Assembly (NCBI RefSeq): GCF_010093815.1
Contig: NW_022985551.1
Coordinates: 1,289,311 to 1,353,310 of the forward strand
Length of the DNA: 64,000 nucleotides
Origin: Pseudovirgaria hyperparasitica
Taxonomy: Eukaryota; Ascomycota; Dothideomycetes; Acrospermales; Acrospermaceae
Reading direction: 5' to 3'
Shown: positions 17,263 to 43,361 of the stretch, in pieces
How the letters are laid out: every line of letters starts with the position of its first letter
How positions within the stretch are numbered: position 1 is the first letter of the stretch
Notes under the pieces: model-generated
What the model was told of the DNA's origin: nothing
The model's input: only the letters and a program-made list of their open reading frames with translations
The model's database searches: none
Program-made: the position numbers and the translations under genes

Positions 17263-19019
17263 GCAAAATTGAGCTAGACGGGCGAATATGAATGGGGCAT
17301 GGACGGCTTGTATTGTGTTTGGAACCATGCACATGGCCATGGCCTTTGTTGGTAGCAAGTAGGGCATGATACAGTGCTGCATGGCTACGCATTCTGGAGA
17401 ATCGTATCGTTTGTCGCATAGATACTTTCCACATCAAATGAATGACCCCCCGCGTACCCATTTCACACGACATTATCTCCACACCTCCCTCTGTCCGCAC
17501 TCCACATTTCTCTCCCAGCCCAAGCCTCATACTACCCTTGCCTGCCCTCTCCTCTAAGCTAAGTCACTGCGGCAGACTACTTCGTTAAAACATCATCCGA
17601 CGTATACCTTACATTCTACAATCGTGGTCTCGAAACAAACATATATACCAGTCTACAGTGGTATCTCGCTACCACAATATCTAGTATTTAAACAAGCGCC
17701 CCCCTCTAACCCTTATTCATCGTTTTATCGAGTCGTATAGATAGGTAGAATAGGACTCAGCCAATCAACGCCTAGAGACTTAGCGTCTGTGATAATCGAT
17801 TACACAATGATCTCCGCTATAACGATATAATCAAAGTGACCGTATTCGTATCGCTATAACGAGATCTAACTGTAATACAAGCTGCCTTGCGAATGCGAAG
17901 ATCTTTGTCTGTGCACTTGCGCAGATCAGTCCGGATGTGCGAGACTGTCGCGTCGCGGAGATCCATCCGTAGTTGCGGTGAGGGCGAGAGGAGCGAGCCG
18001 AGCCGGGGATGGGATGGGCTGGGATGGATACACCCCGGGAGGCTACGTTTCAGGAGGTGGGAGGAAGAGTCTCGGTGTCGATTACTTAGGTGCGGGATTT
18101 GAAAAGCTTGGGGTTTGATGAGAATGTAGTATATATATATATGTAAGGGTCCGGCACGGATGGATGCTTGGGTCTAGGGAATCATCCTGCATAGTTAATG
18201 GACTTTGTTTGCTGGATATGGAGTTTGAGGCTGTATGTAGTACACTGCGAATTTGGAGTCTCTGTCTGGTGTATGATATGATGCTCTGCGGTTTGGTGTT
18301 TTGGGGGTTATACTTCCGTCGCGGCCTCGTCGATGGTTATATGTAGCGTGTTGAGTTATGCTTATAATTAGTCTGAGGTGTCTGAAACCTACCGTCGTCG
18401 GCGCAATGGTGAAATTAATCGTCCGGGGATGGATCCGACTTATTAGGGGGCAGACGATGCTCGTGCACTGGCGGAATGATGGGCACGAATAGCGAGATAC
18501 CCATTTGAAATATGACCTCATTACAAAAAATCCCCAACAACGTCAGCTCTGCATCTTCACATAACCTTAATGATATAACTAACCCCAAGCATTAGCACGT
18601 ACGTGGTATACAACTTAACCTCCAAGCTTGCTGTCTGTAGTTTGTTTCACACCATCAGGTCAAAGATGGATCAGCACACCTTGTCGCAGGTAGACCTAGT
18701 ACACGAGCCGCTAACAGACAAGGACCCCAGGCTATCCATATATCTACCGAGGCTTTTGTACTAATTATGCTCTTTTTTGTGCCGCTCCGACGACTAACTA
18801 GCCTTGTCACGCATGCTATGTGATTGTACGGTGGGTCCGCGCAGGATTCTTGGTTGTGATCCGCGTTGTAAATGTCATAACGGGGTCGTGGTTGGGTTGG
18901 CTGTATACATTATATCTATGCAACAGGCCCCCGATATGGGCCACCTGTGAACGAACGTCAACAGGAACGGTTTTTTCTTAATTTGCATCTGTACTTCCAT
19001 TCTGTGAGACCTGGTCCCA
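17263..19019. other. Long intergenic region, partly AT-rich
   Basis: 1.76 kb without a supported gene. 17570-17900 is conspicuously AT-rich with repeated CTATAACGA-like words (near 17814 and 17853), suggesting decayed repetitive DNA. A short (TA)n run lies at about 18129-18142. Confidence 0.4.
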
Positions 19020-20649: not shown

Positions 20650-21452
20650 GGAGTACATTCATGATACGCCAGTATCTTTTCAACAATTCGACGAGTGCTG
20701 AGAGGTTGGGGTGAACGACTTTGCGAGACCTCGATTCTAAAAAGTCGCATTTTCGAGCGACGGATCTCTCTGACAACGATGACCACAGTGGTGACGTTCT
20801 CCTCGGCTTTAGGACCGATAGATGTCATCTATTAGAGTCTTCTTTCAAACTTGATTGTCAAGTCTTCTTATCTAGGACCTTTGGGCGTACAAGTAGGCAT
20901 CAGTCATTCATGGCGCTCACATTGACTACCAACCCCATGATATTCTCAGACATATGTGTCGTGTACTGATTTTTCATGAGTGTCACTATCCACGCAGCAA
21001 TCGCTGATCATAGTGTTGTAGTTCGAGCCACATCTGCTCTGCAAACATACTTGTAGAGCAGAGGTACGACATCGAGTCCCAGCGTGCCACACAGATAGGT
21101 ATCTGTATGCACTCAGATTGTAGAATTGAAAGCAGCTAGATCTTCCCTTGGGGTCCGACGTGCGGTGGCGTATAGCGCATTTTTGGTTTCGTCTCGAGCA
21201 TTTAGATGTCTTTAATATAGCTGTGCTCGACCGATGTGAATCCTCGAGGGCATCAGAAGCCATTATCGAGACTTTGATAGAGTGTAGATCTTGTCGGCAT
21301 CACCCATTGACTTCGAGGTAAAGCAGATGATGGAGTATAGTGCGTGAAGTTTCAAGCCCACGACCAGCTGTTGATGATCTGATCAATGCCTCTAATTGAC
21401 TTGCAGAAGGTCAACGACCGTATCAGGTTGTACTCGACCCGCATCGTGTCCA
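20650..21452. other. Intergenic region downstream of the P450
   Basis: About 0.8 kb. Open frames present are short and antisense-like; I see no gene, RNA or repeat. Confidence 0.4.
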
Positions 21453-21821
21453 TCAGTACACCACACCTCCCAGCACACCAATAACAACCAATGGCGGCGC
21501 CACACTCCTTCCACTCCTCAATCTTGCATACGCGCCCTCTCCAAGATACAACATCGCTGTGACCGCCGTCCACTTCCTAGTCCGAGGCCAGACCAGAAGC
21601 CCGGCAACACCCAGATTTATGTAAGCCAGTATTTCCGTGAATATTTTAGCAGACACCCCTAGACGGCTATAGACAGGCTTCATCGACTCCGCAGTCTTCT
21701 GGTGTTGTTCGCGGTACGCGGTTTCGAAAAGGCGTGGTGTGAGGCGTGTGAGAGCTCCACCGACGAAGACTAGGGCGGCAAGGGAGGAGAAGATGGTGCG
21801 GCGTTCGTACTTAATACTCAT
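21453..21821 (-). CDS. Small predicted four-helix membrane protein (possibly DoxX-like)
   Basis: An intact 122-residue frame with ATG at 21821. Hydrophobic segments lie at about residues 10-26, 56-78, 84-98 and 107-122, with a charged loop (about 32-50, FETAYREQHQKTAESMKPVYS) after the first. The layout of one helix, a hydrophilic loop, then three closely spaced helices recalls small DoxX-like membrane proteins of fungi, but I cannot show homology. It starts 0.28 kb from the 3' end of the calpain gene and shares no obvious promoter with the P450. Hypothetical; the coding call rests on the membrane-protein pattern. Confidence 0.5.
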   Translation of the reverse strand: MSIKYERRTIFSSLAALVFVGGALTRLTPRLFETAYREQHQKTAESMKPVYSRLGVSAKIFTEILAYINLGVAGLLVWPRTRKWTAVTAMLYLGEGAYARLRSGRSVAPPLVVIGVLGGVVY

Positions 21822-22098
21822 GATTGAGATGAGTAGGAGGTTGGGTGAGTTAACTCAGTCTTGAATGAAGATAGCGCGATGCAGAGCTCTAGTGGACTGA
21901 ATGAGGCCTGGAGGAGCTCCCACGACAATTCCTGCCTCAGGCGCCAACCTAACACTTGCAATCATTTCGGAAAGGCAGATTGATATATCTGAACAGAACA
22001 ATACATGGGAGACTCTCCGTCTACATTACAGCCATACCAGATGCATACAAGAGAAATTCTTGTGCCCAATCAATGACATCAATCAATCATTCATTCAT

Positions 22099-25000
22099 TC
22101 ATTCCTTGTCCTCGTCATGCAGAACTTTGATATCGGCATTCGGCCCAATGCAGCAGACCTTCATCCCAATCACACAAATGGCGTTCCAAGGCTTGTCCTT
22201 GTACAGGTCATCCACTTCCTGCTCTTCGTCTGAGTCTGTTGCTACTGACCCATCGATATCGCTGTCCCAGTCGAAGTCATCGTCTACAGGATCCGTCACG
22301 TCGCTTACCGCATCATCGTCTTCCTCGTCCTCGTCTTCCACCTCGGCTTCAGGCTTCTCGTCAACCTTCACAACAACGTCGGTGTCCTTCTTCTCTGTCT
22401 CACCCTCGGCCCGGGGCTCGGTATCAACGGTGATCGTGATGCGTGTCTTGGATGCCTCGCTGGACTCGGCTGAATGCTTGCTTTCGCCCGTTGGGGGAGG
22501 GTGGCTTCCGGACGGCGCAGGGGAACCGTCAGGTCCTGGCTTATTGACCTTTTCCCAGTCTTTCGAGTTATCGGACTTGGAGTCATCTTCCTTCTTGTCA
22601 TCTTCCTTCTTGTCGTCGTCCTTCTTCTCGTCGGCCGTCTTCTCGTGATTTTCTTCCGCATTGACTTCAGCAGGGTTCGACTCTTTAGGTCCAGTCTCTG
22701 CCGCAGTATCTACATCTAGCTTAGGTTCTTCTTTCTTGCCTGTGGTAGTCGAGGATGATGTTGACTCGGTACCTGCAGTCGTAGAAGGTTCCGGTTTTAT
22801 ATCCCGGGACTTTGACTGCGACTTGGACCTTATCGGGATGACCTGCTGCTTTTCCGTGCTCCTGGCGCGTTCTGTGTCTTCTTCATTCTTGTCGGCAGCT
22901 TTCTTTTCCTCTTTTTCCTTCTTCTCCTTGTCCATCTTCTCTTTCTTCGCGGCCTTCTTGAGAGCCATTAATCGCTCCTTTTCATCTGCAATGCGCTTCT
23001 CTCTCAATTTCTCACGCTGTCTTTCCTTCCTCCTTGCATTACGTCCGGAAACATTCGTCTTCTTCGACTTGTTGCGTGCTTCCGTCTTGTCACGGCGGTC
23101 CTTGGCCCGTTCAGCCTCACGGAGCTTGCCTTTGGCGTGCACCAAGTCGAAGCTTTTGCCTATTGCCTGCAATTTTTCCCGCTTGCTTTCGCGGTTTCGC
23201 TTGATGACTTCCTCGGGGGTAGCATTATCATCGTAGCGTTGAGCACTGATTTTTACGTAGATGGTATATTCCCCCGCGTCAAGGTCGAGCTCTGCACTAC
23301 AAGATCTGCCAGAACCCGAGTCTTGAATACTGCGAGCTATGTATGTCTTCTCGCCGTTTTTGTACAGTCGGAAATGGAGATCGTATCTGTAGCGGCCGTC
23401 AAGGCCATTGAAATAGCGTTCGTCAGGTTGACTGAGGACTAGAACCACAGGGCTCTTTTCCTTTAGTGTTAGCGAGTACTTGGTGCTCAGGTAGTCGGCC
23501 GTCCATGGAACTTCAACGGAAGTCCACTGCTGAGTCACAGTCCAAGAGTCGTCGAATAAGCGTGTACGGTCAATCTCTGGGTAATACTTGAGAAAGTCCT
23601 TGTATGAGATCCAGAAGATACCGTCATCGCCGAAAGTGTGACCAAGCTCCTTCATCATCTCTGGCGTCCATTCCTTAGATCCGTCGCTCCAAGCGCCATT
23701 CCACTCTGTCTCTCCCCATGGATTGCGTATCTTGAGCAGTCGCAGCTCGTTGACCTCACGTGCTTCAAGCACACTGTACGCATGCCCTCGCACGAAACCC
23801 TCGTCATCTCGTGGGTCCGAGTCTCGACCGTAGCGGGAGCCACAGCCGAAGAGGAAATCCTTGTTGACTTGGGTAAGTTCAGACCATAGCTTATCTTTGT
23901 CTAGGACGTGCTCAGAGTAAAGATATGTGGCGACGCCACCCGTAAGGTCTTCGATACCTTCATGATGTCAGTAAGTAGGTAGTTGGTGATACATGGGCAT
24001 ACGACCTTCTCCGGGAAATCCGCCTTCGATAGCCTGATAGTCACCATGGGCCTTTGCATAGGCCTTTTCAAGCAGTGGAAGCCACGTCTCATTCTTGGAG
24101 CGGCAGCTGGAGAAATACAGCGCATTGGAACCCTTTCGAAGGTTCTCACGGAAGTCTTTCGGAAGGCGTGAGATGCTATATTCTCCTGCTTGCAGTGGAT
24201 ATATATCCTTGTACGCCTTTCTGCCGTCAGTAGTGATCATATACTCAGATGTATATGACCATTTATCGTCATTCTGTCGGAGAGCCAATCTATCGTCGAC
24301 AACTTCAGAGATCCATTCGCCATCTATAGCGGGCATTAGATACCAGACGGCTGACAAGTAAGGAGGACGTACCTCTATAGAAGACGAAGCCGTAAACACC
24401 GACCTTCTCATCGCGATCGACACAGATGCGCTCCAGTAGCTCCGGTTTCCCAGAGAGAGCAGTTATTGCTGCGAGGAACCAGCAATCGCCAACCGTGCCT
24501 TGACATACATCGTTCGCGGTCGCACCATCTTCGTAGAATTGTGGATTCTCGAATATATCCTGAAAGCCATCAGCATCTGAAAAAATTCACATGCAAATAC
24601 TGTAAGCTACCTCGACACGTTTGACACTCTGCACGCCTGCGAGACCTTGCAATGAATATGGGACCTCAGTAGCCTCAAGACTCTGTAAGGTATCGACAGA
24701 CCCTAGATCCCAGGTACGGTCATAGTACTTGACGTTCAATCGTTTGCATTCTTCGGCAATGGCACGCACTTTCGACTTGCATGCTCTCGCTGCCTCGTCA
24801 TAGGACAAAGAGGCCTTTTGGCTACTGTTTCTCAGCACTGTTCTCCTCCATCAATCTACACTCGTGCAGCATGAAGCATACCTTGTTACTATTCCCTCCT
24901 TGTTGCTATCAGGCTGATGCGACGGCTCGCCCTCAATATCAACATCCAAACTAGGTGTGACAGATACCTTGGGATACTTCGGACGCGCACAAAAGCGGTC

Positions 25001-26397: not shown

Positions 26398-27402
26398 TCA
26401 GAGCTTCTCACTGATCGTGTACGCTCTCGTCTCTTTCTCACACCAGTCCCAGAACTCGCTCGCAAGCCCCTTTCCACCCTCCTCCTTTCCCTTCGCCGCC
26501 TCTAGCACATCTGGCCTCAACTTCTCCGTCCCGATCTGGCCCCATGGCATCACATACACGCCGTTCCTCTCCAACCCAATATCCGGCGAGCACCCGGCGT
26601 AAAGCTCCGTCGCAGCGCCAAACTCCGCATGGTAGCACCCCATCAACAATATCGCCCTGCCTATCCACCCCATATGTCTCTGCAATTCCGACCTCAGGTT
26701 GCCCGGGTTGAAGCTCGCACTTACGATGCCCTCGCGTCCATACCTCCTCGCGAACTCACTACCCAGGAAGAAGTTCCCAGCCTTCGACATTCCGTAGTTG
26801 AGCCATGGGTTCGGGTCGATTTCCGGGCCGTCGGGTCCAAGCTGAACTCCGTATTTGGGCGTGGCGACCTGGACCCCGATGCTACCGGCCCAGGTTACGC
26901 GTACGGAGCCAGGTGGAGAGGTCTGCGCCGTGGAACGGAGGACAGGCAGAAGAGCGGTGCTGAGCAGGAACGGGCCAAGGCAGTTCGTGCCCATCTGCAG
27001 CTCGTGGCCTTGCGCGGTGACGGAGCCTGCGGCGGGCACCATGACGCCGGCATTGTTGTACAGGACGTCCAGTCTCGACTCCTTGGCCATGAAGGCGGCC
27101 GCGGCGGCGCTCACGGTGGGCAGGTCGGACAGGTCGAGCTGCAGGAAGTCCAGCTTGCCGGTTGAGGATGGTGCAGCATGTTGGATGTCTGTAAGGGCGG
27201 CATTGTATTTCTCGGAGCTGCGTCCGGCGATGTAGACGGTTGCATTGCGGGAGTAGAGGATGCGGGCGAGCTCTTTGCCCACGCCGGCGTAGCCGCCTGT
27301 GACGATGTGGACGCGGCCGGTTTGGTCGGGAAGAGTGTCGATGGTCAGGGGAGGGCTGGGGATGAAGAAGGATTGCGAGAGGATTGATGATGCTTGTCCC
27401 AT
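26398..27402 (-). CDS. Classical short-chain dehydrogenase/reductase (retinol-dehydrogenase-like)
   Basis: An intronless 334-residue frame with ATG at 27402. It shows the Rossmann glycine motif TGGYAGVG (35-42), NNAG (116-119), Ser174 in the WAGS strand and the catalytic pair Tyr203/Lys207 in YGMSK, so all active-site residues are present. The family transfers hydride between NAD(P)H and an alcohol/carbonyl; fungal members of this shape are annotated retinol dehydrogenase-like or WW-domain-oxidoreductase-like, without known substrate. It points the same way as the next reductase (27801-28814), 0.4 kb apart, and could be co-regulated with it. Confidence 0.85.
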   Translation of the reverse strand: MGQASSILSQSFFIPSPPLTIDTLPDQTGRVHIVTGGYAGVGKELARILYSRNATVYIAGRSSEKYNAALTDIQHAAPSSTGKLDFLQLDLSDLPTVSAAAAAFMAKESRLDVLYNNAGVMVPAAGSVTAQGHELQMGTNCLGPFLLSTALLPVLRSTAQTSPPGSVRVTWAGSIGVQVATPKYGVQLGPDGPEIDPNPWLNYGMSKAGNFFLGSEFARRYGREGIVSASFNPGNLRSELQRHMGWIGRAILLMGCYHAEFGAATELYAGCSPDIGLERNGVYVMPWGQIGTEKLRPDVLEAAKGKEEGGKGLASEFWDWCEKETRAYTISEKL

Positions 27403-27800
27403 GTTTTTTTGCGGCTCACGTGAGCTGTACGATGCTGCACGATATATGCTAGTGAGTCGAGATTAGGATAAGCCCCCTCGGAATAGCGAGAGTCCTCGGA
27501 AATCACACGACTTTCTTCGGGTAATCGTGAGATGGATGGCTTTTGATACTTCGACATGAAATCGTCCAGGAGGTGATTAATAAGGTCAGACTTGGACATG
27601 GATTGTTTATGCGTGGAAAGTTCGAGTCATTGCACTAGTCCGATTCCTATCAGCAAGGATCCACAGCGTCGCTTACATGGATCATCAGTTCCAGGGAATT
27701 GGCACAGAGTGAAGTGCATGTGTTTATAGCGTTATGGGTCGTATGGAATTGCTTGACTACGGGCATGGTTTTATTTCTGTTGCCTAACTATTGTGAAATT
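27403..27800. other. Spacer between the two reductase genes
   Basis: 398 bp with the promoter of the 26398-27402 gene and the 3' flank of the 27801-28814 gene. A minus-strand open frame crosses it but shows no domain. Confidence 0.45.
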
Positions 27801-28814
27801 TTATTTCAAATGAGCTATGTTTGCCTCAACACTCTCTCTAAGAGGAATGAGTTTCTCCTGGCCAAAGTTCTTGCGTAGAATCTCCTCAGTACGTGGCTTC
27901 CGCAAAATAACACTTAGATCATTGCCTGGGTTCTCCAAGCGGTTGTTGAACTTATGATCAGGACGAAGCTCCTGCAGAATGTCGATGATAATGTTTTTGT
28001 TGAATGGGTCAGTGAACGCGAAGACCCGCTCATTCTGTATCTCAGGATCGATCAAAGCGGCGACATGTAGCCGTGCACAATCTCGGACATCAACGTGATA
28101 CTGTGGAGCTGGAGTGTCCATTGCTGTACCTCCATTGTACGTGTCTGGAACCCAATTGCCAGTGCTCGCAGGCTGGTTGTCAGGGTCGATGATTGGGCCC
28201 ATGTTTGTATTTGGCAGTACGGAATTGGCAACGAAATGAGGCTTCTTCTCCTTTACAAACTTCCATAGCGCCTGCTCGGCTTGAGTCTTGCTCGCACCAT
28301 ATACATCCCAGGCTCGATCTTCCTTAATAGGACCTGGCGCCCACGCACGCTCGACGCACTCTTCGTTCCAGGTGTTCTCGTCGATATCGAACTTGACATT
28401 TGGCTTCGGATTTGTTGCTGCCGTGGACGAGCTAGTGTAAACTAAGCGCTTCACACTGGGCTCAGCGGCCGTAGATTCGAGAACATGTTCGATTCCAGCA
28501 ATGACAACCGGAATGACCTTTTGCGGATCTGGGTCGAAGGTCAAGATGCTTGCCATGTGGACGACTCCAGAGACTCCTTTGACGGCATTATCGAATGCAC
28601 CCTTCACAGACATATCTGGCACAACGGCAATCTCGAGTGATCCAGGGCCGTATTTCTTGTTGAAATGATCCAGCAACCATTTGCCCTTATCCTCTGAGCG
28701 GACTGTTCCCCGCACTTTGAAGCCTGCGATGAGAAGCTGGTCAACGGTATGACTCGCGATGAATCCATTAGCACCTGTCACTAGGACGAGGGAGCCTTTC
28801 GAAATTGCGGACAT
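27801..28814 (-). CDS. Extended SDR, aldehyde/ketone reductase-like (dihydroflavonol-reductase type)
   Basis: 337 residues from the ATG at 28814; the longer open frame upstream has no ATG and is not used. TGANGFIA (13-20) binds NADP(H), HMAS (86-89) and YTSSSTAA (126-133) form the central strands, and Tyr172/Lys176 in VYGASK are the catalytic pair. The overall pattern matches yeast Gre2 and Sporidiobolus aldehyde reductase 2, which reduce aldehydes or ketones such as methylglyoxal. Acts in the cytosol. Substrate unknown. The next element upstream (right) is a transposon insertion, which lies about 310 bp from this start codon and so may sit in its promoter. Confidence 0.88.
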   Translation of the reverse strand: MSAISKGSLVLVTGANGFIASHTVDQLLIAGFKVRGTVRSEDKGKWLLDHFNKKYGPGSLEIAVVPDMSVKGAFDNAVKGVSGVVHMASILTFDPDPQKVIPVVIAGIEHVLESTAAEPSVKRLVYTSSSTAATNPKPNVKFDIDENTWNEECVERAWAPGPIKEDRAWDVYGASKTQAEQALWKFVKEKKPHFVANSVLPNTNMGPIIDPDNQPASTGNWVPDTYNGGTAMDTPAPQYHVDVRDCARLHVAALIDPEIQNERVFAFTDPFNKNIIIDILQELRPDHKFNNRLENPGNDLSVILRKPRTEEILRKNFGQEKLIPLRESVEANIAHLK

Positions 28815-29114
28815 GATGGACGGAAATTTGGTAATGATCAAGGTGAATGAAACAAAGAAGCCCGTACCATATGTTGTAAACGAAAGCTTTTGTAGTGGAC
28901 CAAGTGAAGGGTTGTGTTGGCTTTGTAAGCTGGCTGCATCGATAGGTGCTCGGTTCGATGCGCCTCAATTGTACCACTTGTAGTTTTGAGCAATTTCATG
29001 CACGATAAACAATCCGTCATGAAGACCGAGGTGTGTTACAAAGAAATGATGACATATCCATACGTCTATCGGGACCCCACTTACCGAAGAGCACCTAAGT
29101 GGTTCCTCGTTCAT
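28815..29114. promoter_or_regulatory. Upstream region of the extended SDR gene
   Basis: 300 bp between the reductase start and the transposon target duplication. Nothing specific recognised. Confidence 0.35.
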
Positions 29115-29679: not shown

Positions 29680-30912
29680 TCAATTATAGTACAACACATT
29701 GCCTTCGAACAGACGCCTCGCTGTTCGCGACACTGTGCACTGGACAACATGTGAACTGCTCTCCAGGAGTAGGACATCAGCGTCAACAGAAATTGAGCCG
29801 CCGGGATGCTTGACTGTGACAGCGCGAGTTTTGCCACTTGTGGCGGGCGCTTTACAGTACATAGTCTCTGCGTTGTTGGGACTCGGTGTACGTTCCGGTG
29901 TTGGTAGAGCCTCAGAGGTTGATAGCAGGTTTGGCACGGTGCCATCTATGCAGACGGCCGCACCAAGACACACTGCTCCTGTAAGTTGTAGACTTGGGTG
30001 CGGTTTTCCCATGCTGAAAGATTGGACCTGAATATCCATACCAGGACTTGAAGAAGGCCACACAATCGCGATCTTGGGCGTGCCTCGCCTGGCAGCGGCT
30101 TCTTCTTGATTATTGGCCATGTTCATCTTGATGGCACCAGCCCTGCGAATGCATTCGACCGTGTCCACGTAAAGTTGGTCTTGCGGCATTGCTGCTGACA
30201 ACCAAGTTGGGAGAGTAAAAGCGTTGACAAATACAAAGGGGTTTGCAGCATCGACTAAAGTAGCTTGTACGGTGAATGGAGTGTCAAAGGTCGATACGGT
30301 AAGCTCCTCAACCCGATTACCGCTGGGAAACAATGCCCCTGTGACGCTTCCTGCAGGATCAACAAATGCGACGTGGACTTGACGGCCACTATCAACCACC
30401 CCAGCCATGTCATATAAGCCATCCTCTTCGAAATGGTCGTTCTCATCAACATCCACGGTCTCGACCATGATTCGAGAAGTGTTCGTGTTGAAAATCCTGA
30501 CTTCGACCTGGCGAACACCTGGATCTGCTATCACCAATCGTTCATCCAAGGCAAAAGGGCCCACGCCGCTGGCCATGTTCCCACAATTGCCACTGAAATC
30601 AACAGTCTCCATTCCAACAGAGACTTGAGCAAAGGTATACTCCACATCAGCATCAGAGCGCTGGGAAGGACTAATGATCGCGACCTTCGAAGTTGTTGAT
30701 GTCGCACCCCCGACGCCGTCAATCTGACGAGGCTCGTTGTTCTTTGAGCCCATTGCTGCCAGTAGAGGCCTGACCCATTGATCTTGTGATGCTGGTAGAT
30801 CCTTTCTGTGTATAAAAAGTCCCTTCGAAGTCCCGGCCCGCATCAGAACGGCGGGCAGGACGTGTCGAACTCTTTTTCGTTTGAGTGTCGTTTCTTGCAT
30901 GTGGACACCCAT
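29680..30912 (-). CDS. PrpF-family isomerase (aconitate/methylaconitate/methylitaconate isomerase type)
   Basis: An intronless 410-residue frame with ATG at 30912; length is typical for PrpF. Family landmarks: AVLMRAGTSKGLF (21-33), DGVGGATSTTSKVAI (65-79), the SGNCGNMASGVGPFA block (107-121) with the conserved Cys110, and a second-half repeat with AIKMNMA and VQSFSMGKPHPSLQLTGA. PrpF proteins isomerise or support processing of unsaturated tricarboxylates: cis/trans isomerisation of 2-methylaconitate in bacteria, methylitaconate isomerase in anaerobes, and Adi1 aconitate isomerase in the Ustilago itaconate cluster. It diverges from a Zn2Cys6 regulator (0.85 kb shared promoter) and lies near a mitochondrial tricarboxylate carrier and a carboxylate-type transporter, which supports an organic-acid substrate. 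No mitochondrial presequence is obvious, so cytosolic action is likely. Confidence 0.88.
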   Translation of the reverse strand: MGVHMQETTLKRKRVRHVLPAVLMRAGTSKGLFIHRKDLPASQDQWVRPLLAAMGSKNNEPRQIDGVGGATSTTSKVAIISPSQRSDADVEYTFAQVSVGMETVDFSGNCGNMASGVGPFALDERLVIADPGVRQVEVRIFNTNTSRIMVETVDVDENDHFEEDGLYDMAGVVDSGRQVHVAFVDPAGSVTGALFPSGNRVEELTVSTFDTPFTVQATLVDAANPFVFVNAFTLPTWLSAAMPQDQLYVDTVECIRRAGAIKMNMANNQEEAAARRGTPKIAIVWPSSSPGMDIQVQSFSMGKPHPSLQLTGAVCLGAAVCIDGTVPNLLSTSEALPTPERTPSPNNAETMYCKAPATSGKTRAVTVKHPGGSISVDADVLLLESSSHVVQCTVSRTARRLFEGNVLYYN

Positions 30913-31096
30913 ATTGATCTTTGTTACTGTAATGCCCTGGGTTTGATGAAGTGTTCCGGTAGTGCGTGGCTGTGGTGATGAGATAGCTTGACCACGCAGC
31001 GAGACATATGTTCGGCACGACGTGGCCTATTGTACTAGAGTCCATCTTCTTATGATGTTATTGCGTACGACGGGTGCAGTGATCAGGTCTGCAATC

Positions 31097-31102
31097 CCGC
31101 GG
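31097..31102. promoter_or_regulatory. CCGCGG palindrome (context TCCCGCGGCT)
   Basis: A CGG inverted pair with zero spacing in the PrpF/regulator promoter, about 190 bp upstream of the PrpF start codon. Confidence 0.4.
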
Positions 31103-31212
31103 CTACTACATCCTGTCAAAGTCCAAAAAGAGGCATCACGACGATCTTGTTACTGACATGAAGCGCGACTTCAGTGAGGGAAGTGTATGTGGTGAGTACA
31201 CACTGAGTGATC

Positions 31213-31225
31213 TGTACCCGCGGGA
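31213..31225. promoter_or_regulatory. Candidate regulator site TGTACCCGCGGGA, copy 1
   Basis: A thirteen-base word with palindromic core CCCGCGGG, identical to 35711-35723 in the carrier/transporter promoter. Confidence 0.6.
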
Positions 31226-31647
31226 AGTTTGCCATCTGCTACATTAGGTAATAATAGTGACCACTGAGTAATCAAAGTCGGCGTCACTTTGGTCACTCAA
31301 ACAGTACTAGCCCGATTCTCCTGACGCCTGAACCACTTTGCGACCCCAAAGTGAAGAGTTGATAACGCATCGTTTCTGAAATTCTCAGCGTTGAAGAAAT
31401 AACGCCAATAGACCGCTCAGCATAATATGCTCCTCGCTATATGTTGATTGTTGAATAGTTCATCTTTCGTTCTCGCTGGTTGGCCTAGCATGGATGCGTG
31501 TGAGCCGGGCAGCGCTAAGGAAGGTCTCTATACCACCCAGGGCTTACGTCTCATCTCACTAATCCACTACTCAATAACACATGTGCCGTCTATATGGGGC
31601 GGCTGCCGAAGAAGCGGGTACATGGCCTACTTAACAAGGTTCAGTTC

Positions 31648-31653
31648 CCGCGG
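31648..31653. promoter_or_regulatory. CCGCGG palindrome (context TCCCGCGGCC)
   Basis: A third CGG inverted pair in the same promoter, about 110 bp upstream of the regulator start codon. Confidence 0.4.
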
Positions 31654-31763
31654 CCAGCACCACTTGTACGATTGACTACACCCATCACTGCCATGCTCCG
31701 TCACCTACCCGTCTCGAATCAGTTCACAGAGGATCCGACCGAGAAGGCGTCGGACGTATAGTC

Positions 31764-34077
31764 ATGCCTACTCGAGAGTCGCTTACAGCCAATGGAAAGC
31801 CCAGAAAGCGTGCTACCGAAGCTTGTACTACATGCCGCCGCAGAAAGATCAAATGCGATGGGGCCCAGCCCAATTGCGTCAATTGCAAAACTTTCAATCG
31901 GATATGCTCGTACGAGCCGATCGAAGAAGAAGTCCGCCGCCAGCAAAAGCCGAGGAAACGTGTTCGGCGTGGAACGACATCGGATGCATCGCCTACAAGC
32001 AGCCTAATCGGAAATGAAGGCGATCAACAAACAACTGTTCCTGCCAGAGGTAAGCGAGTGATTCGGGTTGTCGTGTGGCTCCATGTTCCGGATCTTTCTG
32101 CCTTTGTAGTTCAGTATTCTAGCGGCCTACACATAATATACCAGTTGAGCCCGGTAGGGCCTCTAGCATATGCCGAATCAGCCGAGCTAATATTTAGGAT
32201 CAGACACCCAAAGAAATGTTTCTACGATAGTCTTCTCCGCAAACGGAACTTCAAGCTACCATGGGCAAACGAGCGCTCTTTTTGAAGAGCTGCATTCTGA
32301 GCCTTTACTGCAAGCAAGACCGATACCCAGGATATCTGAGGCCTGGGCCGAAAAGGGCCTTGTCGCAGAAGCGGCTAAACAAAGACAGATGGAAGACGTG
32401 AACTTTGCCGCAGGAACCCTTGATTTCGATGGAGTTGATCCTGATCTCGGCATGCATCTCCTTTCTCTGCATTGGAATCGTCAACATCACTCATTCTTGA
32501 TTACGTATAGACCTGTGTTCATGAGAGATATGGCCTGCCAGGGGCCTTACTTCTCAAGGATTCTATTGAACGCCATCTACTTTGGAGCAGCAAAGTTTAG
32601 TCCTCGCCTAGAAGTTCGGAAGGACCCGAATGATGTTAGGACTGCTGGGTGGCAGTTCAGAGAGCGTGTTCGAGAACTTCTAGGGAGCGCACTAGACAAA
32701 AGTGAGATTACTACCATTCAGGCTCTCCTAGTCATGACAAACTCCCTATTCGCTCTTGGCGACGAACGAAGCGCAGCTTGGCTGTACGCTGGACTTGCAT
32801 TTCGGATGATCATCGATCTAGGCATGCATGTTGACGCGCCGGACATCTTGTCTGTTCGCAAACTTTCAGAAGAAGATATCGAAGTACGTCGTCGAGTCTT
32901 CTGGGGAGCGTTTGTTGTCGACAAGATCCAGTCGCTGTACCATGGCCGACCAGTGACTTTTCAAGGGCAAGACGCTAGAGTCCCCATAAAGTTCCTAGAC
33001 ACATTTGAGGAGCTGGAGAGGTGGAAGCCTTTTGCTTATACTCCACAAATCGAACAATATGGCGGTTGTCCTGCGTTTAGCGTATCGACCTTTAGCCATT
33101 TGTGCAAGCTTTCTGTCATTCTGGGGGACATTCTTACATCGATTTATGCTGAAAACAGCTCAGAAAGAACTCCAGACGAGCTATCCAGGCTTTTAGAGGA
33201 GCTGAATGGAAAGCTGGTCCAATGGCGCAATTCAATTCCGAAGCACATGGAATTCGATCATACTAAGCCGACGCTCTCAGATCCGCCGCCACATATTTTC
33301 TCTTTACTCATCATGCACCAAGTATTGGTGATCCTACTACATCGTCCCTTTGTCGCTGATGGCCACCTCTATCGCAATGCACGATCAGTTCCTGCCAATG
33401 CGTTTGCGGCGTGCGCAACAGCAGCCACTCAGATCGTACATCTTTTACGAGCCTACGACAAAGCCTTTTCGATCCGCAAAGCCCCGTATCTCATCTCATA
33501 TGCTTGCTACGTTAGTGCTACTATACATGCGCGGATTGTGGCGCAACGTGGCCGCTTATCTGAGGCATATTCTTCTGTTGAGACTTGTCTCGCTGTCTTC
33601 GAAGAGAACCAAGAGACTAACTGGGCTGTCAAGCGAGCCAATATCATCATCCAGAATCTACTCAAGAAGCTGGGTTCTACTTTGCCCCAGAGACCATGGA
33701 AGATCTCCAGTAATGCGAACATACCTAACTCCAGTGGCGATACTGACCCACCTCCTGCGACGGCGCCGTTATCACTTGCCGACTCCTCTGCCGTTGAGCA
33801 GCCGTCCCCAACGTCGAGTCTGGACTTGGACGCAATCATACAGAGTTTTGCCCCTGACCAGGATCTATCTCAGTCTGAGTTTACAATCCGCACCGATCAT
33901 CCGATTTCTGGAGATTTCTATCCACCACAAGGGCAGTCTGGTTCATACAACTCCGCGTATCCATTGCAGATGGCCTACAATCCATATAACTCTGATCCTA
34001 ACATTGACGATCTCTTGTTCGGGTTCAACAGCTCTACTCTCGACAATTTCTCCTTCCCAGACTGGACAGGTACATGA
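31764..34077 (+). CDS. Zn2Cys6 fungal transcription factor
   Basis: Two exons, 31764-32049 and 32198-34077, 721 residues. The zinc cluster is CTTCRRRKIKCDGAQPNCVNC followed by a sixth Cys in NRICSYEP (residues about 21-48), with a basic linker (QKPRKRVRR). After the 148-bp intron the frame continues with GTSSYHGQTSALFEELHSEP, the conserved entry to the fungal-specific middle homology region, then the Fungal_trans core (LLSLHWNRQHHSFLITYRPVF; ALGDERSAAWLYAGLAFRMIIDLGMH; RRRVFWGAFVVDKI). The C-terminus is Ser/Pro/Asp-rich and may activate transcription. It diverges from the PrpF gene and is the only regulator in the cluster, so it probably controls it; CGG-palindrome sites in both cluster promoters fit. 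The longer of two possible intron definitions was chosen because it alone keeps the middle-homology frame. Confidence 0.87.
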
Positions 34078-34393
34078 TGCCAAAATAGCGTCGGAAACTT
34101 GTCTTTCAGTCAAAAGGAATCTACTTTCAGCGTGAACACGGAATATGGAAGATATGATGGATTGACATATAGGACTAAAAGACCAATAGCATTGGCGATA
34201 TCTCTTGGGTGCTTTGTCCGAAATTCATTCGTCTGAAGCATCGCACCTTTCAGGCAGGTACTAGGTCTTGATGGATATTGGTCAACCATCTAGCTCCTCA
34301 TTGCGGTGTTACAAGTGGAATGCTTAGCAAAAGCACCTACCCAGCCGAACACTGAACACAACTTCCTCGTAACATTCCATAATGTGATATCTC
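34078..34393. other. Convergent spacer between regulator and carrier genes
   Basis: 316 bp of 3' flanks. No gene seen. Confidence 0.45.
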
Positions 34394-35436
34394 CTACATC
34401 AACACAGTCTCTGTCCTTGCATACATCAAGGCAGCTGTAATCTTCTCATACACTGTGAAGACAATACCACCACTAAACACCAATCTCCCGAGCCTCATCG
34501 TGCTGCCAGACCAGAACCCTCGGATACCAGAAGAGGACAGAATATCTCTCACTGCCTGAACAGTAGTCGCTCCTTGAGTACTCTGCGTACGAGTCTTGGT
34601 TGCATCGAACGGCTGCGTCGCGTAGACGGTCACAACACCTGCCGCAGCACCAACTCCAAAAGTCGTCACGCTATTCTGCGGCAGACTCAAGTTGACAGCA
34701 AAGTCTTTGAGGACGTTGTACGAACCCATGCGTACAGCTGACGTTGATCCTTGCTTCAAGGTCGTTGAAAAGAGACCTCGATATAGACCGCGGACGCCGT
34801 TCTCTCGGACGATTATGCCAATGGCATGGAAGCCTCCTCGAAATCTTCTGGCGCCCTTTGCGTCGTCAATTCTGGTCTACTCATCAGCCACAGCACAAGC
34901 AGTAATGGTCCTGATGTTCTTACAGCGCCGTCTTCACGCGTTCCGTCGGCGTCACAGCAATAACACTCTCAACACATCCTGCCACCATACCGGCAAAAAT
35001 CCCTCGCATCGGAGACAACTTCCCCTTTTCATCCACGAGCGTATTTCGTATCGAATCGAAGCCGAGAAATCGCACTCCGGCCTTGAATGCAGTGCCAATA
35101 ATCAGCGTCGAGCATCCTGTGTATACAGCCCCTGATATCGTAAGCCACGTCCGTCTTTGTGAACTATAGTAGTAGACTTACCTATGCCCTCCGTCCGTGC
35201 GACTTGCGTGATGATTTTGAAGGGGTTTCGCGAGCCGGACTGGCCGTGTAGCTGCACTCTGGTCTTCGCGAACTCGAATGGATACTGTAGCATCACGAGA
35301 TTAGCTTCAGGCTGGTATTACTGTCAGAGTGTGGACAGCGACTTACTGTGGCTGTGGCTTCGACAGCACCCGCAATGCTCCCGGCGAATAGGGACACGCC
35401 AGGCGTTGGTTTCTGTTTCTGTGTATCTGCACGCAT
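34394..35436 (-). CDS. Mitochondrial tricarboxylate (citrate) carrier, Ctp1-like
   Basis: Four exons, 35436-35347, 35284-35182, 35131-34924 and 34871-34394, 292 residues, the standard size for a mitochondrial carrier. Three repeats each have the PX[DE]XX[KR] signature: YPFEFAKTRVQ, TPTERVKTAL and QPFDATKTRTQ. Tricarboxylate-carrier-like sequence is seen in GLYTGCSTLIIGTAFKAGVR, FLGFDSIRNTL and LYRGLFSTTLKQG. Such carriers exchange citrate, isocitrate or cis-aconitate for malate across the inner membrane; MttA/Mtt1 of the itaconate clusters are relatives. Its promoter is shared divergently with the Dal5-like transporter. Beside a PrpF isomerase it likely moves the tricarboxylate substrate or product between mitochondrion and cytosol. 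Confidence 0.9.
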
Positions 35437-35971
35437 GCTGTCTATTTCTCCATGATCTATCCTCTATGCAGGCTGGAAATGATGTGTAGCTCTATGCAGA
35501 ATGCTTTATAATAGACTGCCTTGGGCTTGCGTTGCTTACACTGCTAGAATTATTGCGGGTACATTCGTCTGCCTGTTTTCGATAGGATTAGGACTACGTA
35601 GATATACATCCGGCCTTTTACTTCCGTCGCACATCCGCGTTCTACTAGGTTCCGGGTAGATCCCGAGGCATGCTACTAGTTACTAAGTGAGTAGTGTGTA
35701 CACGTGTGTATGTACCCGCGGGACATGACTATACGGGGGCGGGATCAACGACCCGATTCAGACGACCCGCCTCCACATCGTAATTACCCCAGATCAGACA
35801 CTACATACGACCAGACATACCAAGACGCTTGCAACATGGCTGATGTTGGTTTAATTATAAAGCTTGTCACTACGACCTCGCCGTGAAAAAACAAGACCTG
35901 CAAGCCAAGACGCTGTCGAGTCGTCTGTATTGGTGACCGCAACCCGTCAGAAGTGGCATTCATTTCCCAAA
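35437..35971. promoter_or_regulatory. Divergent promoter of carrier and Dal5-like transporter
   Basis: 535 bp between the two outward start codons, containing the second copy of the 13-bp CCCGCGGG word at 35711-35723. Confidence 0.6.
35711..35723. promoter_or_regulatory. Candidate regulator site TGTACCCGCGGGA, copy 2
   Basis: Identical over 13 bases to 31213-31225, in the same relative type of position (between divergent cluster genes), 275 bp from the carrier start and 249 bp from the transporter start. Confidence 0.6.
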
Positions 35972-37717
35972 ATGGCAGCCGAAATCGAAAAACAGTCTCA
36001 TGTTCACCAAGAGTACACCGGCTCAGAGACTCGCACGCCGGTGCAGATCCAGTCGCAATTTGCCCTGCTGCGCGACCTCTCGGACGACCAGATGCAAGCT
36101 CTGGACAAGAGAATAGTCAAGATCCTGGATTGGCGGATGATGCCCATCATCACACTGATGTTCCTAATGAGGTAGTTTCATCTCGCCTCGTCAAGGCAGT
36201 AATATGCGAAACATGAATTGACTCGTTTCAGCTATCTCGACCGCATCAATGTCTCCAATGCTCGTCTCGCAGGCCTGCAAGACGACTTGCACATGTCCGA
36301 CACGATCTGGAACGCCGGGATTTCGACATTCTATGTGGGGTATTTGATCGGGCAGCTTCCAGGGGTGATATGGATGACGAAGATGAAGCCGAATCTGTTC
36401 TTGCCGGGGGTGATGCTCGCGTGGAGTGCTGCGACGATATGCATGCCGGCGATGACGAAGTGGGTTTTCTGAGTGTGTTCGCAGAGGGGAGACTTTGCAG
36501 CGTTGACACGGTGCTAGTGGAACTGGCTTCGTGCTCTGTCGATTCGTCATCGGGCTCTGTGAGGCGCCGTTCTTCCCTGGTATCACGCTGAGTGAGTACG
36601 CAACGAGGAAGGAAGTGGTGGATGTGGTGCTGATTGAGAGTAGTGACGTCGTCGTGGTATAACAAGCGTGAGAGTCCCACTCGGATGGCAGTGTGGCATG
36701 CCGGCAACACCGTCTCTAACATACTGTCTGGCTTCCTTGCCGCTGGTATCTTGACAAACATGGAAGGCGTCCATGGTCTGCACAGCTGGCAGTGGTTTTT
36801 CATCATAGAAGGTGCAGCATCAATTGCGATAGCTGTGGCAGCTTTCTTCCTTCTCCCAAGTTGGCCACACGATACGAGGTTTCTCACAGAAGAGGAGCGT
36901 GAGATGGCTCAGTATAGAGTTCTGGTATCGAATGGAGGCGTCGAAGAAGCCTTGGGTGGAACGTGGGATGGCATAAAGGAGGCGGCCAAAGACCCTTTCA
37001 CATGGTTGTTTTGTGGAATGCATTTTGCCTTGGTTACGGCGCAGAGCTTCAAGGACTTCTTGCCATCGGTAAGCCTCTTCGTACCAGGCCATCCAGATTC
37101 AGAGCACTTACAGAAGCATAGATCATGGAGACGTTCGGCTTCGACACGCTAACCACGTACCTCGTCCAAGCACCTCCCTATGCAATCGCGTATGCTATAT
37201 CATGCGGACTTGCCTACTCGTCAGGTTATTTCCAAGAGTCTTGCTTTCACATCATCGTCCCGATAATCTTCAGTGCCTTGGGTGCTTCACTGTTGATCGC
37301 AACCCTCAACGTTGGCGCACGTTACTTCGGGTTGATCCTGCTTATAACCGGCACGTATAGCGGACTCAATCTGCAGCTCTCATGGGAGACTACAGTGGTG
37401 CCCCATCCACGTAAGAAGAAAGCTGCACTGATCGCCATTGCAAATGCTATTTCGCAAGTCTCGCACTGGTTCAGTAAGTATTCTGAGCTTCGATGGGAGC
37501 GTTCATCTGACAGCGCAAAGGCCCACAATTTTTCCCGACATCCCAAGAGCCGTTTTATCGCCTAGGGGGTGGATTGATCCTTTTTGGCTGTCTTTTCGCC
37601 GTCATAATATGTCTGTTGGTAACTTGGCGGGCGAAAGTCCTCAACAAAAAGCTCGATGAGGCGGAAGGGTGGTCGGAGCATACGGGTAATGAACGGGGTT
37701 GGAGATATGTATACTAG
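35972..37717 (+). CDS. MFS transporter, anion:cation symporter (Dal5/allantoate permease) family
   Basis: Six exons: 35972-36171, 36232-36459, 36518-36591, 36644-37068, 37122-37473 and 37521-37717, 491 residues. The family pattern is clear: LDWRMMPIITLMFLMSYLDRINVSNARLAG at the first helix, STFYVGYLIGQLPG, LCRFVIGLCEAPFFPGITL, SSWYNKRESPTRMAVWHAGN, and a closing FPTSQEPFYRLGGGLILFGC helix with an EGWSEHTGNERGWRYVY tail. Family members take up carboxylates and related anions such as allantoate, nicotinate, pantothenate or tartrate at the plasma membrane. In this cluster an unsaturated di- or tricarboxylate is the natural guess. The start is the ATG giving MAAEIEKQSH; the frame upstream lacks an ATG. 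The third exon is only 74 bp but is required to join TN-GTGFVL. Confidence 0.9.
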
Positions 37718-40018: not shown

Positions 40019-41113
40019 CTATGTTGGCTCCCCGGAAGGGCCCTGCATGACAGTCCCGAGTGGTTCAGGACTCCCAAATATTGGTTGCCCATTCCTATCC
40101 CACTTAACAATCTTCGCCATCGTGTATCGCGACCGGTCGCATGCGCCATTGCTATTCGCCGTGGCATGATATACATTCCATATCTGAGTTCCGTCTGGAC
40201 TCTGGAAGAAGCTATGAATCATTATCAGCATATGTTCTCAGATCCTCAAAAGCCTAGAAAAAAGTATAGCTTACCCATTATGACCCGGCCCAAAATTCCC
40301 ATTCGCACTTTGCAAGAATGGCCCAGTCTTTGTCCAGCTCGCCTTCTTAAGCGGATCCCCGCCAACATAAGTCAATACGCCCAGCTGGTAACTGCTTGTC
40401 CCACAGTAGCTCGCGGAGAAGCTCAGAAACGTCTTGCCCTTGTGGTACATAGCAGCTGGACCCTCATTCACGCCGAACCCAACAGTCTCCCAATCTGCTT
40501 CTGGTAACGACAGCTCATGCGTCTCACCCAGCGTACCAGGCTCGAGCAATTCTGCAATACAGAGGCCTTGGAGGTCGGATGTAATACATGACCATACGAA
40601 ATAGAGCTGATCTGGGAAACGAAGGACCGTACCGTCGATGCCAAACTCCGAGGTCAGCGTCGACAGATATGTATATGTGTCGAACGGGGTGGCACCGCCA
40701 ATGAGTACGTGCGGGCGCTGTGTGTCACAGCATGTAGTGCAGAAGCCAGCGCTAAAGTAGAGATACCATCTAGATGACACATTAGTACGACTTGAACGTC
40801 TGTCTGTGCAAGAGGCGAAATATTACCGGCCGTGGATATAGTGCAGCTCTGGCGCCCATAACTCGCAGCTGCGCGACGGGTCGTCGGGGGTGAAGACGGT
40901 GCGTGTCTCGCCATCCTTGAGTCCCTCGAGAGTGGTAGCCCGTGTAATCTGGACGTTGCTATATGTGGTCGTGGTCAGATAATAGTAGCCATCGAAGACG
41001 ACTATGTGTGGATCACTCCCTAAGTCAGGTTTCAGGGGATCAGAGTAGTTTGCTGCGAAGACGAGGGAGATGGCGGATAGGCATATCGCCGAGAGTAAAG
41101 TAAGAAGTCTCAT
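40019..41113 (-). CDS. Secreted glycoside hydrolase family 43
   Basis: Three exons, 41113-40827, 40769-40275 and 40211-40019, 324 residues. A signal peptide (MRLLTLLSAICLSAISLVFA, cut near 20/21) is followed by the GH43 five-bladed propeller. The catalytic base is Asp34 in GSDPHIVVF, WAPELH follows, the pKa-modulating Asp is Asp141 in GIDGTVLR, and the acid is Glu198 in GVNEGPAAMYHKG; GPGHNG carries the conserved His. No binding module is attached. GH43 enzymes release arabinose or xylose from plant cell-wall polysaccharides; the compact single-domain form suggests arabinofuranosidase or arabinanase-type activity (inference). It diverges from a second GH43 gene. Confidence 0.87.
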
Positions 41114-42238
41114 ATCTTACAAGAGAGAAATTGAGATTTACTTGTTGTGGTCTTCCAATATGCCTTCTCTCGAGCTTCTCATATGCTTACTGTCACGAGA
41201 AAACTAGACATTGGACTAAGTGATCTTGGCATGAAATTTTCGGTTATTAGGGAATGATCATCTTCAATCGGGATACAGTAAGTAAAGCGAAGTCAGAAGA
41301 TGATTCCAATGTTCATGATACCAAAGTTTCATCAGTTTGTGCAATATGCCGAGCACACCAAGATCTTGGAGATGATGGAGACTCCACATTACGAATAATG
41401 AATGACACAGGGGTGGGCCTCTCATGATATTCTTTTGTTTTCCTTGCTTGTATCAAGCCCTAATTGAAGTAGTTGGGTGAATTTCCTACCCCGCAAAATG
41501 CTAAAAGGGCTTGTTGCTCTTTCTTGGCAGCCCGCCGGATGCAATGTCGATCCATCCTTGAGTATAGACAATACCGGCTAAGTTGCGAACAGCATCTTCA
41601 AGTCGCGTGGTCCTAATAACGGATCATGCCTCCAAGCTCCCGTGAACAACATCCCTGCTTGGTGTGCACGGCAATCAATCCTTTGCAAACCCACCGGAAC
41701 CTCACTATTACTAGACCAATCGTCCCGAACGCTTCCCCGGATTTCGGCCTATCAAGTTCCGGATCTAGTAATGGCGCATCGCCTTCACCTGGGGTCCTGT
41801 TTAAGTTCGCAACGGGCCTGCATCTGATTCTTAGCGTAACATCTGGGAGGGTATGTCATAATCCTGGGCTCACGTCATGTGAACGATGTCGCCTGATGGT
41901 AAGTTTTATCCATATAGTGCTCGGGCGAACCATACACTTGCAGCCGTCTTGGCAGTTCGATTGTTATACCTCACTCCTTTCTGACTTGGGAGCACGAGAT
42001 TGGGAAGAGAATTCGTCCTATAAGCAAGGATCGTGTAAGATTTTCCCAATTTTGACAAGAGATACCTGGAGGCCTTCGCGAGACTTTGGTACCTGATCTG
42101 CTCTCACTACCGAGCGCGGCATATGGAAGTGGAGAGACATCGTTTTCTGCGTATATATGATCGTCATACCTATGCCTATAACCTCACATAGGAGTCACTG
42201 AACCGTTCTTCCTTTCTTTACTCACAAATTCCACCGCA
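41114..42238. promoter_or_regulatory. Divergent promoter between two GH43 genes
   Basis: 1.1 kb with both start codons pointing outwards. Contains GTGGGG/CTGGGG-like words that could serve CreA-type carbon repression, which is too weak a match to call. The only long open frame here (41626-42096) has no domain. Confidence 0.4.
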
Positions 42239-43361
42239 ATGCATCTCTCCACATGTCTTCTCGCAGCCGCCACACTCAACTTCGCCATCGCTCTTCCTTC
42301 TAACCTCGAACACCGGAATGACAAGGTCGGCTACCTCTTCACCCACTTTCCCCCTGATGATGAAGCAATCCACATGCTCCTCTCAGACGGCAACAATGCC
42401 CAGACCGGCTGGAAGACGCTCTCCTATGATGGAACCTCTAACACCTCCGCCATCCTGCGTAGCGACGTTGGCACTAAAGGCGTACGCGACAGTCATATCG
42501 TCACATCTCCTGATGGATGCAAGCACTACCTCATTGCCACGGACCTAAACGCCGAGGCCCTTAATTACGACTACAACTACGCCAGCCGCTTTGGCAGTTT
42601 GTCCATTGTCGTCTGGGAGTCCCCGTAAGCCTGTTCCTTCCCATTCTCCGGCTTGCAAAGCCCGGCCCTCCTAACGCTGTGATAGTGATCTCATCAACTG
42701 GTCCTCCGCACGCCTCACTCCGCCCCTTGTCGACGCATCCGCCGGAAACGTCTGGGCACCCGAAGCAAACTGGGACTCTCAACTCCAGGCCTACATCATC
42801 GTCTTCGCTGCCCGCTACTGGTCCGCGTCTGACCCGGATCGAACTGGCGCACAACCGCCCAACATCCTGCAGTACGTCACAACAACCGACTTCCGGACCT
42901 TCTCCGCGCCAACAGAGTATTTTGCACCAGGTTATCCCGTTATCGACGCCACGTTTCTCCACGTACCAGAGCAAGGCCCGGATGTGTGGTATCGCTGGGT
43001 GAAGTCCGAGGTCGACTACATGGTGTTTCAACAGCGGAGCGAGGACGGGATCCGAGGGACGTGGACGAATGTGGGTGGAGCACCGGATTCGGAACGGATC
43101 GAGTTTGCGAGACAGTATTCGAACAATGAGGGGCCGCTGATCTTCAGAGATAATGTTGATCCGGGTTTATTTCATCTTTGGATTGATGAGAGTACTTTGG
43201 ACAGCTACATCCCAGGGCAAGCAAGAACCCTGGATGACATGGCGGCGTGGGAAGGGCTAGGGTTGGATGGATTCCCGACGCGGGCAAAGCATGGTGTTGT
43301 GGTGGCGTTGAATCGGGAGCAGTATCGTGGAATTAGCACAAAGTACAAGGTAGTTGCGTGA
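42239..43361 (+). CDS. Secreted glycoside hydrolase family 43-like protein
   Basis: Two exons, 42239-42624 and 42686-43361, 353 residues. The signal peptide is MHLSTCLLAAATLNFAIALP. Propeller motifs: Asp84 in RDSHIVTSPDG (candidate base), WAPEANWD, Asp216 in YPVIDATF (candidate modulator) and Glu278 in YSNNEGPLIF (candidate acid). The body differs strongly from the neighbouring GH43, so this is not a recent tandem duplicate. The likely role is cleavage of arabinoxylan or arabinan side chains outside the cell. Confidence 0.82.

Follow-up and report, generated by a model that had tools for sequence, protein, structure and literature searches.

We analyzed 64 kb of genomic DNA from Pseudovirgaria hyperparasitica (contig NW_022985551.1; this whole stretch is referred to as the window) and found four intact genes at positions 29680–37717, encoding a PrpF-family isomerase, a Zn2Cys6 regulator, a mitochondrial carrier and a major facilitator superfamily (MFS) transporter. 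The predicted genes form two divergent pairs, PrpF with the regulator and the carrier with the transporter. A control element shared by the two divergent promoters ties the four genes together, which is sequence evidence of co-regulation. We propose with moderate confidence that the locus is a small, co-regulated, inducible module for the uptake and use of an unsaturated tricarboxylic acid, most likely trans-aconitate. A first-pass annotation of this DNA had named the same four families, the two divergent pairs and their coordinates, and our open reading frame (ORF) and exon models and Pfam matches agreed with it, the coordinates exactly. It had also read the locus as a dedicated module for organic acids, separate from the itaconate clusters; this view is supported by the shared element and by the finding of no CadA- or Tad1-type match in the ORFs scanned.

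Gene models and locus layout

We placed the gene models on the two strands by hand, using the sequence alone; each of the nine introns begins with GT, ends with AG and preserves the reading frame. Introns in the genes, together with the fungal families Zn_clus and Fungal_trans, give the window a fungal character. The start codons are 851 bp apart in the PrpF/regulator pair and 535 bp apart in the carrier/MFS pair. Between the pairs, the regulator and the carrier converge, with stops at 34077 and 34394, respectively.

29680–30912, minus strand: PrpF-family isomerase gene; start at 30912, single open frame, intronless, 410 amino acids; PF04303, 311 bits
30913–31763, no strand: PrpF/regulator divergent promoter region; 851 bp between start codons; four of the six element sites
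31764–34077, plus strand: Zn2Cys6 regulator gene; exons 31764–32049 and 32231–34077; 710 amino acids; Zn_clus 39 bits, Fungal_trans 99 bits
34394–35436, minus strand: presumed Ctp1-like mitochondrial carrier gene; exons 35436–35347, 35284–35182, 35131–34924 and 34871–34394; 292 amino acids; Mito_carr 187 bits, three repeats
35437–35971, no strand: carrier/MFS divergent promoter region; 535 bp between start codons; two of the six element sites
35972–37717, plus strand: MFS transporter gene, presumed anion:cation symporter (ACS)/Dal5 type; six exons, 491 amino acids; MFS_1 117 bits, NCBIfam 2A0114 186 bits (below cut-off)

A promoter element shared by the two divergent pairs

The 9-mer TGTACCCGC occurs four times in the window, counting both strands (31213, 31614, 35555 and 35711), against 0.22 copies expected, and none of 100 shuffles reached this count. 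All four copies lie inside the two divergent promoters, two per promoter. The 13-mer TGTACCCGCGGGA has two identical copies in the window, one in each promoter (31213 and 35711), and CCCGCGGG occurs nowhere in the window outside them. The core of TGTACCCGCGGGA is a palindromic CCG/CGG of the zinc-cluster type. Such triplets are the type of site bound by Zn2Cys6 proteins, and the regulator encoded in the cluster would be the candidate to bind the element. The CCCGCGGG motif was found in none of the matches listed from the zinc-cluster literature.

All four window sites of the shorter motif CCCGCGG lie within the two cluster promoters. Its total is not over-represented (6 matches against 5.44 expected in the window) and it is remarkable for its placement alone; for CCGCGG, 4 of 9 window sites fall in the two promoters. 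Distances from the six element sites to the nearest start codon downstream are 117–301 bp, and each of the four genes has at least one site nearby.

31096–31102, plus strand: CCCGCGG site, 184 bp from the PrpF start
31213–31225, plus strand: TGTACCCGCGGGA element, 301 bp from the PrpF start
31614–31622, minus strand: TGTACCCGC element, 150 bp from the regulator start
31647–31653, plus strand: CCCGCGG site, 117 bp from the regulator start
35555–35563, minus strand: TGTACCCGC element, 119 bp from the carrier start
35711–35723, plus strand: TGTACCCGCGGGA element, 261 bp from the MFS start

As controls, the same 8-mer enrichment statistic was reached in 11 of 5000 random region pairs of equal lengths, and a 9-mer present at least twice in both regions was found in 8 of 2000 random window pairs.

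The PrpF protein and its catalytic residues

The PrpF ORF matched PF04303 at 311 bits (cut-off 27), and in the alignment Lys76 and Cys110 of its product occupy the positions of the catalytic residues K73 and C107 in Shewanella PrpF. Judged by this profile match and by the presence of both catalytic residues, the protein is a member of the PrpF family. K73 or C107 variants of Shewanella PrpF gave no growth on propionate as the sole carbon source, and C107 variants were partly functional in a laxer test (PMC5690661).

An AlphaFold model of the window PrpF was built from 21 sequences, namely the window protein and those of 20 of the 24 prokaryotic loci described below. The mean predicted local distance difference test (pLDDT) score was 73.5 and the predicted template modeling (pTM) score was 0.78; residues 1–14, 56–71 and 335–360 were mostly below 50 pLDDT. 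The best structural match of the model was PrpF (2pvz), and matches also included its trans-aconitate complex (2pw0), methylitaconate isomerase (Mii, 3g7k) and LigU (6p3j). From its residues and its model, the window PrpF looks active.

The models contain no intron in PrpF, one in the regulator, three in the carrier and five in the transporter. Because PrpF is the only intronless gene of the four, a bacterial origin would fit.

Regulator, carrier and transporter

The regulator matched Zn_clus (39 bits) and Fungal_trans (99 bits). The carrier matched Mito_carr at 187 bits over three repeats, with PX[DE]XX[KR] motifs at 32, 126 and 221, and this family-level match and the motifs make it a putative carrier of the Ctp1-like, or citrate, type. 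Its matches in a search of the PDB were limited to uncoupling proteins, ADP/ATP carriers and 2-oxoglutarate/malate carriers; because these are other carrier types only, the citrate-carrier assignment is kept at the family level.

The transporter matched MFS_1 at 117 bits and is presumably of the Dal5 type, again from a family-level match and motifs. Its best NCBIfam model was TIGR00893 (2A0114, ACS family), at 186 bits and under the cut-off of 395. The best PDB match was a D-galactonate transporter. A crude hydropathy scan gave 7 peaks over an arbitrary cut versus the usual 12 MFS helices and was not used as evidence.

PrpF relatives in prokaryotes

Prokaryotic genomes were scanned with the window PrpF using six exact peptide patterns, which gave 24 loci with PrpF proteins of 33–40% identity. 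At least one TctA, TctB or TctC homologue, with families named by Pfam, was present in 18 of these loci, a GntR-type homologue in 19 and a homologue of the isocitrate-lyase/phosphoenolpyruvate-mutase family in 21. In addition, 350 plasmid records contained a PrpF relative; 11 of the 40 regions listed were examined, and the 10 annotated regions hold nine distinct proteins, with two Rhodococcus opacus records giving the same protein. TcuA (tricarballylate dehydrogenase) and Tct genes lie beside PrpF for three of the nine. At these loci (L055, L056 and L058), PrpF sits with TcuA and Tct genes, which suggests that an aconitate isomerase may be required for the TcuA route. The three loci with TcuA, a tripartite tricarboxylate transporter and PrpF come from one bacterium and two haloarchaea. 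The two R. opacus plasmids (L057 and L063) carry PrpF with the aconitase AcnA, a citrate:proton symporter and Tct genes, and one further plasmid PrpF has a Tct-type binding protein nearby. The relatives of the window PrpF are often, and not exclusively, tied to tricarboxylates.

Comparison with known systems

In Bacillus velezensis, TarA (a PrpF-superfamily aconitate isomerase), TarB (an MFS importer) and TarR are each required for growth on trans-aconitate (PMC11495376). The fungal locus resembles this tar system in its PrpF-superfamily isomerase, its MFS transporter and its adjacent regulator with a shared promoter. The tar-type gene set, in which isomerase, MFS gene and regulator stand side by side, is present here in a fungal locus, with the carrier gene sitting between the regulator and the transporter. 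In contrast to tar, the regulator is a fungal Zn2Cys6 protein and not of the LysR type of TarR, and the fungal locus has two bidirectional promoters, an extra mitochondrial carrier and a substrate that we infer. For a tar-like scheme, a cell whose tricarboxylic acid (TCA) cycle lies behind the mitochondrial membrane would need such a carrier.

The itaconate cluster of Ustilago maydis, which consists of Adi1, Tad1, Mtt1, Itp1, Ria1, Cyp3 and Rdo1, also brings together a PrpF-family isomerase, a tricarboxylate carrier, an MFS gene and a regulator (PMC4720413). Adi1 is one of three PrpF genes of U. maydis and interconverts cis- and trans-aconitate, with an equilibrium of 88:12 favoring trans-aconitate (PMC4720413). 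However, no Tad1-type gene was found among the window ORFs scanned; Ria1 is a helix-loop-helix protein (PMC4720413), whereas the regulator here is of the Zn2Cys6 type; and Itp1 is described as resembling a drug exporter, whereas the window MFS protein is nearest to the ACS family. The Ustilago cluster has another type of transporter. The parallel with Ustilago drawn in the first-pass annotation stands for the clustering of Adi1, Mtt1 and a regulator but not for the regulator type. Its statement that MttA lies with an MFS gene in Aspergillus terreus agrees with the published cluster of CadA, MttA and MfsA (PMC4235043). The window locus likewise has a putative mitochondrial tricarboxylate carrier clustered with an MFS gene; it differs in that no CadA-type gene was detected among the window ORFs scanned, whereas the three-gene A. 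terreus cluster, as described, lists no PrpF (PMC4235043).

Prokaryotic PrpF-TctABC loci, some with TcuA or aconitase, are similar in placing PrpF near tricarboxylate uptake genes and a regulator. They differ in using tripartite transporters in place of an MFS protein, at a PrpF identity of 33–40%. Apart from the Ustilago itaconate paper, none of the literature matches listed, judged from titles and abstract starts, described a fungal cluster combining PrpF with a tricarboxylate carrier and a Dal5-type transporter; none of them described a fungal counterpart of the bacterial trans-aconitate-using system.

Neighboring genes and enzymes looked for in the window

Of the 138 window ORFs with at least 110 amino acids, 77 were scanned with Pfam and 61 were left out because a longer ORF overlapped them; the scan also took in two shorter ORFs and three spliced proteins. 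A pair of adjacent genes for reductases dependent on nicotinamide adenine dinucleotide (phosphate) lies next to the cluster. Sugar transporter, cytochrome P450 and calpain genes were observed upstream of it (15349–24462).

15349–17011: sugar-transporter-family gene (Pfam)
19282–20646: cytochrome P450 gene (Pfam)
22102–24462, minus strand: calpain-family protease gene (Pfam)
26401–27462, minus strand: short-chain dehydrogenase gene (Pfam)
27804–28964, minus strand: gene for a 3-beta-hydroxysteroid dehydrogenase/epimerase-like reductase (Pfam)
40274–41113, minus strand: GH43 glycosidase gene (Pfam)
42182–43358, plus strand: reading frames beside the GH43 gene, no Pfam match

The reductase pair has no copy of TGTACCCGC or CCCGCGG, both of which are confined within the window to the two cluster promoters; one CCGCGG (27099) and one ACCCGC (28024) lie inside the reductase reading frames. 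Because it is without the promoter element, the pair is probably not a member of the module, which answers in the negative the earlier suggestion that the reductases at 26398–28814 might belong to it.

No PrpD/CadA-type or CMLE/Tad1-type decarboxylase was found in the window among all 77 kept ORFs, the two shorter ORFs and the three spliced proteins, in agreement with the earlier remark that a cis- or trans-aconitate decarboxylase was lacking. The 77 ORFs scanned also gave no match to a citrate/methylcitrate synthase, AcnD, a polyketide synthase (PKS) or a fatty acid synthase (FAS), and none to a ring-cleaving dioxygenase or a flavin adenine dinucleotide (FAD) monooxygenase. An itaconate cluster, a 2-methylcitrate cycle and an alkylcitrate cluster were set aside, as their key enzymes were not found among the window ORFs scanned.

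Proposed mechanism and alternative explanations

We propose the following sequence of events. The acid, or a product of the acid, would activate the Zn2Cys6 regulator, which would bind the TGTACCCGC(GGGA) elements in both divergent promoters and turn on all four genes, its own included. The MFS transporter, as a putative ACS of the Dal5 type, would then import the acid with protons, and a cytosolic PrpF would isomerize it to cis-aconitate through the Lys/Cys chemistry of the family. Finally, the Ctp1-like carrier would bring cis-aconitate, or citrate formed from it, into mitochondria by exchange, and aconitase and the TCA cycle would burn it there.

Several observations weigh against this reading. 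The window PrpF is filed under neither NCBIfam equivalog; it scored 266 bits on the 4-oxalomesaconate tautomerase model (GalD, NF033377; cut-off 440), the better of the two, and 235 bits on the 2-methylaconitate isomerase PrpF model (TIGR02334; cut-off 440.55). For comparison, at least one gene passed the tautomerase cut-off in 7 of the 11 bacterial genomes searched (468–543 bits), a gene scoring 263–310 bits on the same model was present in all 11, and the TIGR02334 cut-off was passed by no PrpF in 12 genomes searched. In the family tree, the branch of the window PrpF is long (1.94) and its position varies with the model. The LG+G4 tree grouped it with PrpF sensu stricto (support 82/78, with a long-branch warning) and the mixture-model tree placed it beside the Tct-linked class (80/32), while the tautomerase clade excluded it at 100/100 in the free mixture-model tree. 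In approximately unbiased (AU) tests, two placements were not rejected, with the 4-oxalomesaconate tautomerases (p = 0.137) and with the 2-methylcitrate-cycle PrpFs (p = 0.463), and a grouping with the Tct-linked class as drawn was marginally rejected (p = 0.048). The isomerase also gives no direction, because TarA, which serves use, and TbrA, which serves synthesis, are interchangeable (PMC11495376). The 24 prokaryotic loci are a biased sample because one search pattern, FSGNCGNM, is present in all 20 bacterial proteins aligned, and Tct genes are missing from six loci (L001, L002, L010, L018, L020 and L021, of which L001 and L002 are short contigs). On plasmids, two PrpFs lie in AcnD propionate operons with PrpC, and one of these two operons has a Tct-type binding protein at some distance; another PrpF is labeled 4-oxalomesaconate tautomerase; and one has GntR as its sole neighbor of interest. 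Finally, a shared 13-mer or longer was found in 44 of 2000 random window pairs and in 9 of 1000 Markov-simulated pairs.

The main rival is production and export, which we consider unlikely. The carrier would export mitochondrial cis-aconitate, PrpF would make trans-aconitate and the MFS protein would secrete it, like the tbr operon of Bacillus thuringiensis, in which TbrA and TbrB serve the synthesis and export of trans-aconitate (PMC11495376). Mtt1 and MttA have been proposed as cis-aconitate exporters in itaconate clusters, with Adi1 downstream in Ustilago (PMC4720413, PMC9367143), and the Adi1 equilibrium lies towards trans-aconitate. However, the best family model of the transporter is that of an anion:cation symporter, though under the cut-off. 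The ACS-type transporter, the tar parallel and the Tct neighbors of prokaryotic PrpFs favor uptake over export without proving it; the earlier annotation had left the two directions as alternatives. An improbable explanation is the breakdown of gallate or another aromatic compound, with PrpF as a 4-oxalomesaconate-type tautomerase, the transporter importing the aromatic acid and the carrier passing the resulting acid to the mitochondria. Older work proposed a route from gallate to cis- or trans-aconitate in Aspergillus niger, and the Zn2Cys6 activator TanR is required for growth on gallate (PMC10512348); moreover, the tautomerase model is the best NCBIfam match of the window PrpF, and its joining with the tautomerase clade was not rejected by the AU test. 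Nevertheless, its score is well under the cut-off that the bacterial genes at 468–543 bits exceed, the free tree excludes it from that clade, and neither a ring-cleaving dioxygenase nor an FAD monooxygenase was found among the 77 ORFs scanned.

The four genes could instead be neighbors by chance: the citrate carrier would have a housekeeping role, the transporter would be a stray, the regulator and PrpF would form an unrelated pair, and the shared element would be a coincidence. A single genome stretch was analyzed, and random pairs do match the 8-mer statistic (11/5000), the repeated 9-mer (8/2000) and the shared 13-mer or longer (44/2000). Nevertheless, we doubt this explanation strongly, as all four TGTACCCGC copies fall in the two promoters, two in each, with sites 117–301 bp from each start, and the four families fit one pathway. 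It is very improbable that the locus represents only part of a larger gene set, whether for alkylcitrate, for itaconate or for propionate (2-methylcitrate). Such sets do contain PrpF, a regulator, an MFS gene and a tricarboxylate carrier, and two bacterial plasmid PrpFs adjoin PrpC and AcnD; however, no citrate/methylcitrate synthase, PrpD/CadA, AcnD, Tad1, PKS or FAS match was obtained among the 77 ORFs. The fungal 2-methylcitrate cycle uses PrpD, which also counts against a fragment.

Significance

The locus is real and functionally plausible. Beyond an uptake-and-use module, we tentatively suggest that it may be a eukaryotic regulon for trans-aconitate or a close tricarboxylate such as tricarballylate, i.e., a compartment-adapted counterpart of tar, in which an intronless bacterial-type PrpF would have been acquired and combined with two fungal parts, a symporter and a zinc-cluster switch, and with a mitochondrial carrier feeding the product into the TCA cycle. 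trans-Aconitate is found in plants, e.g., maize and sugarcane (PMC13188880); it inhibits TCA-cycle enzymes and is a plant antifeedant (PMC4720413). If this reading is true, such a regulon would point to a function for uncharacterized fungal PrpF genes. Organic-acid engineering would gain a new transporter and a new mitochondrial carrier, and the regulon would be an example of a simple bacterial pathway rebuilt around mitochondria.

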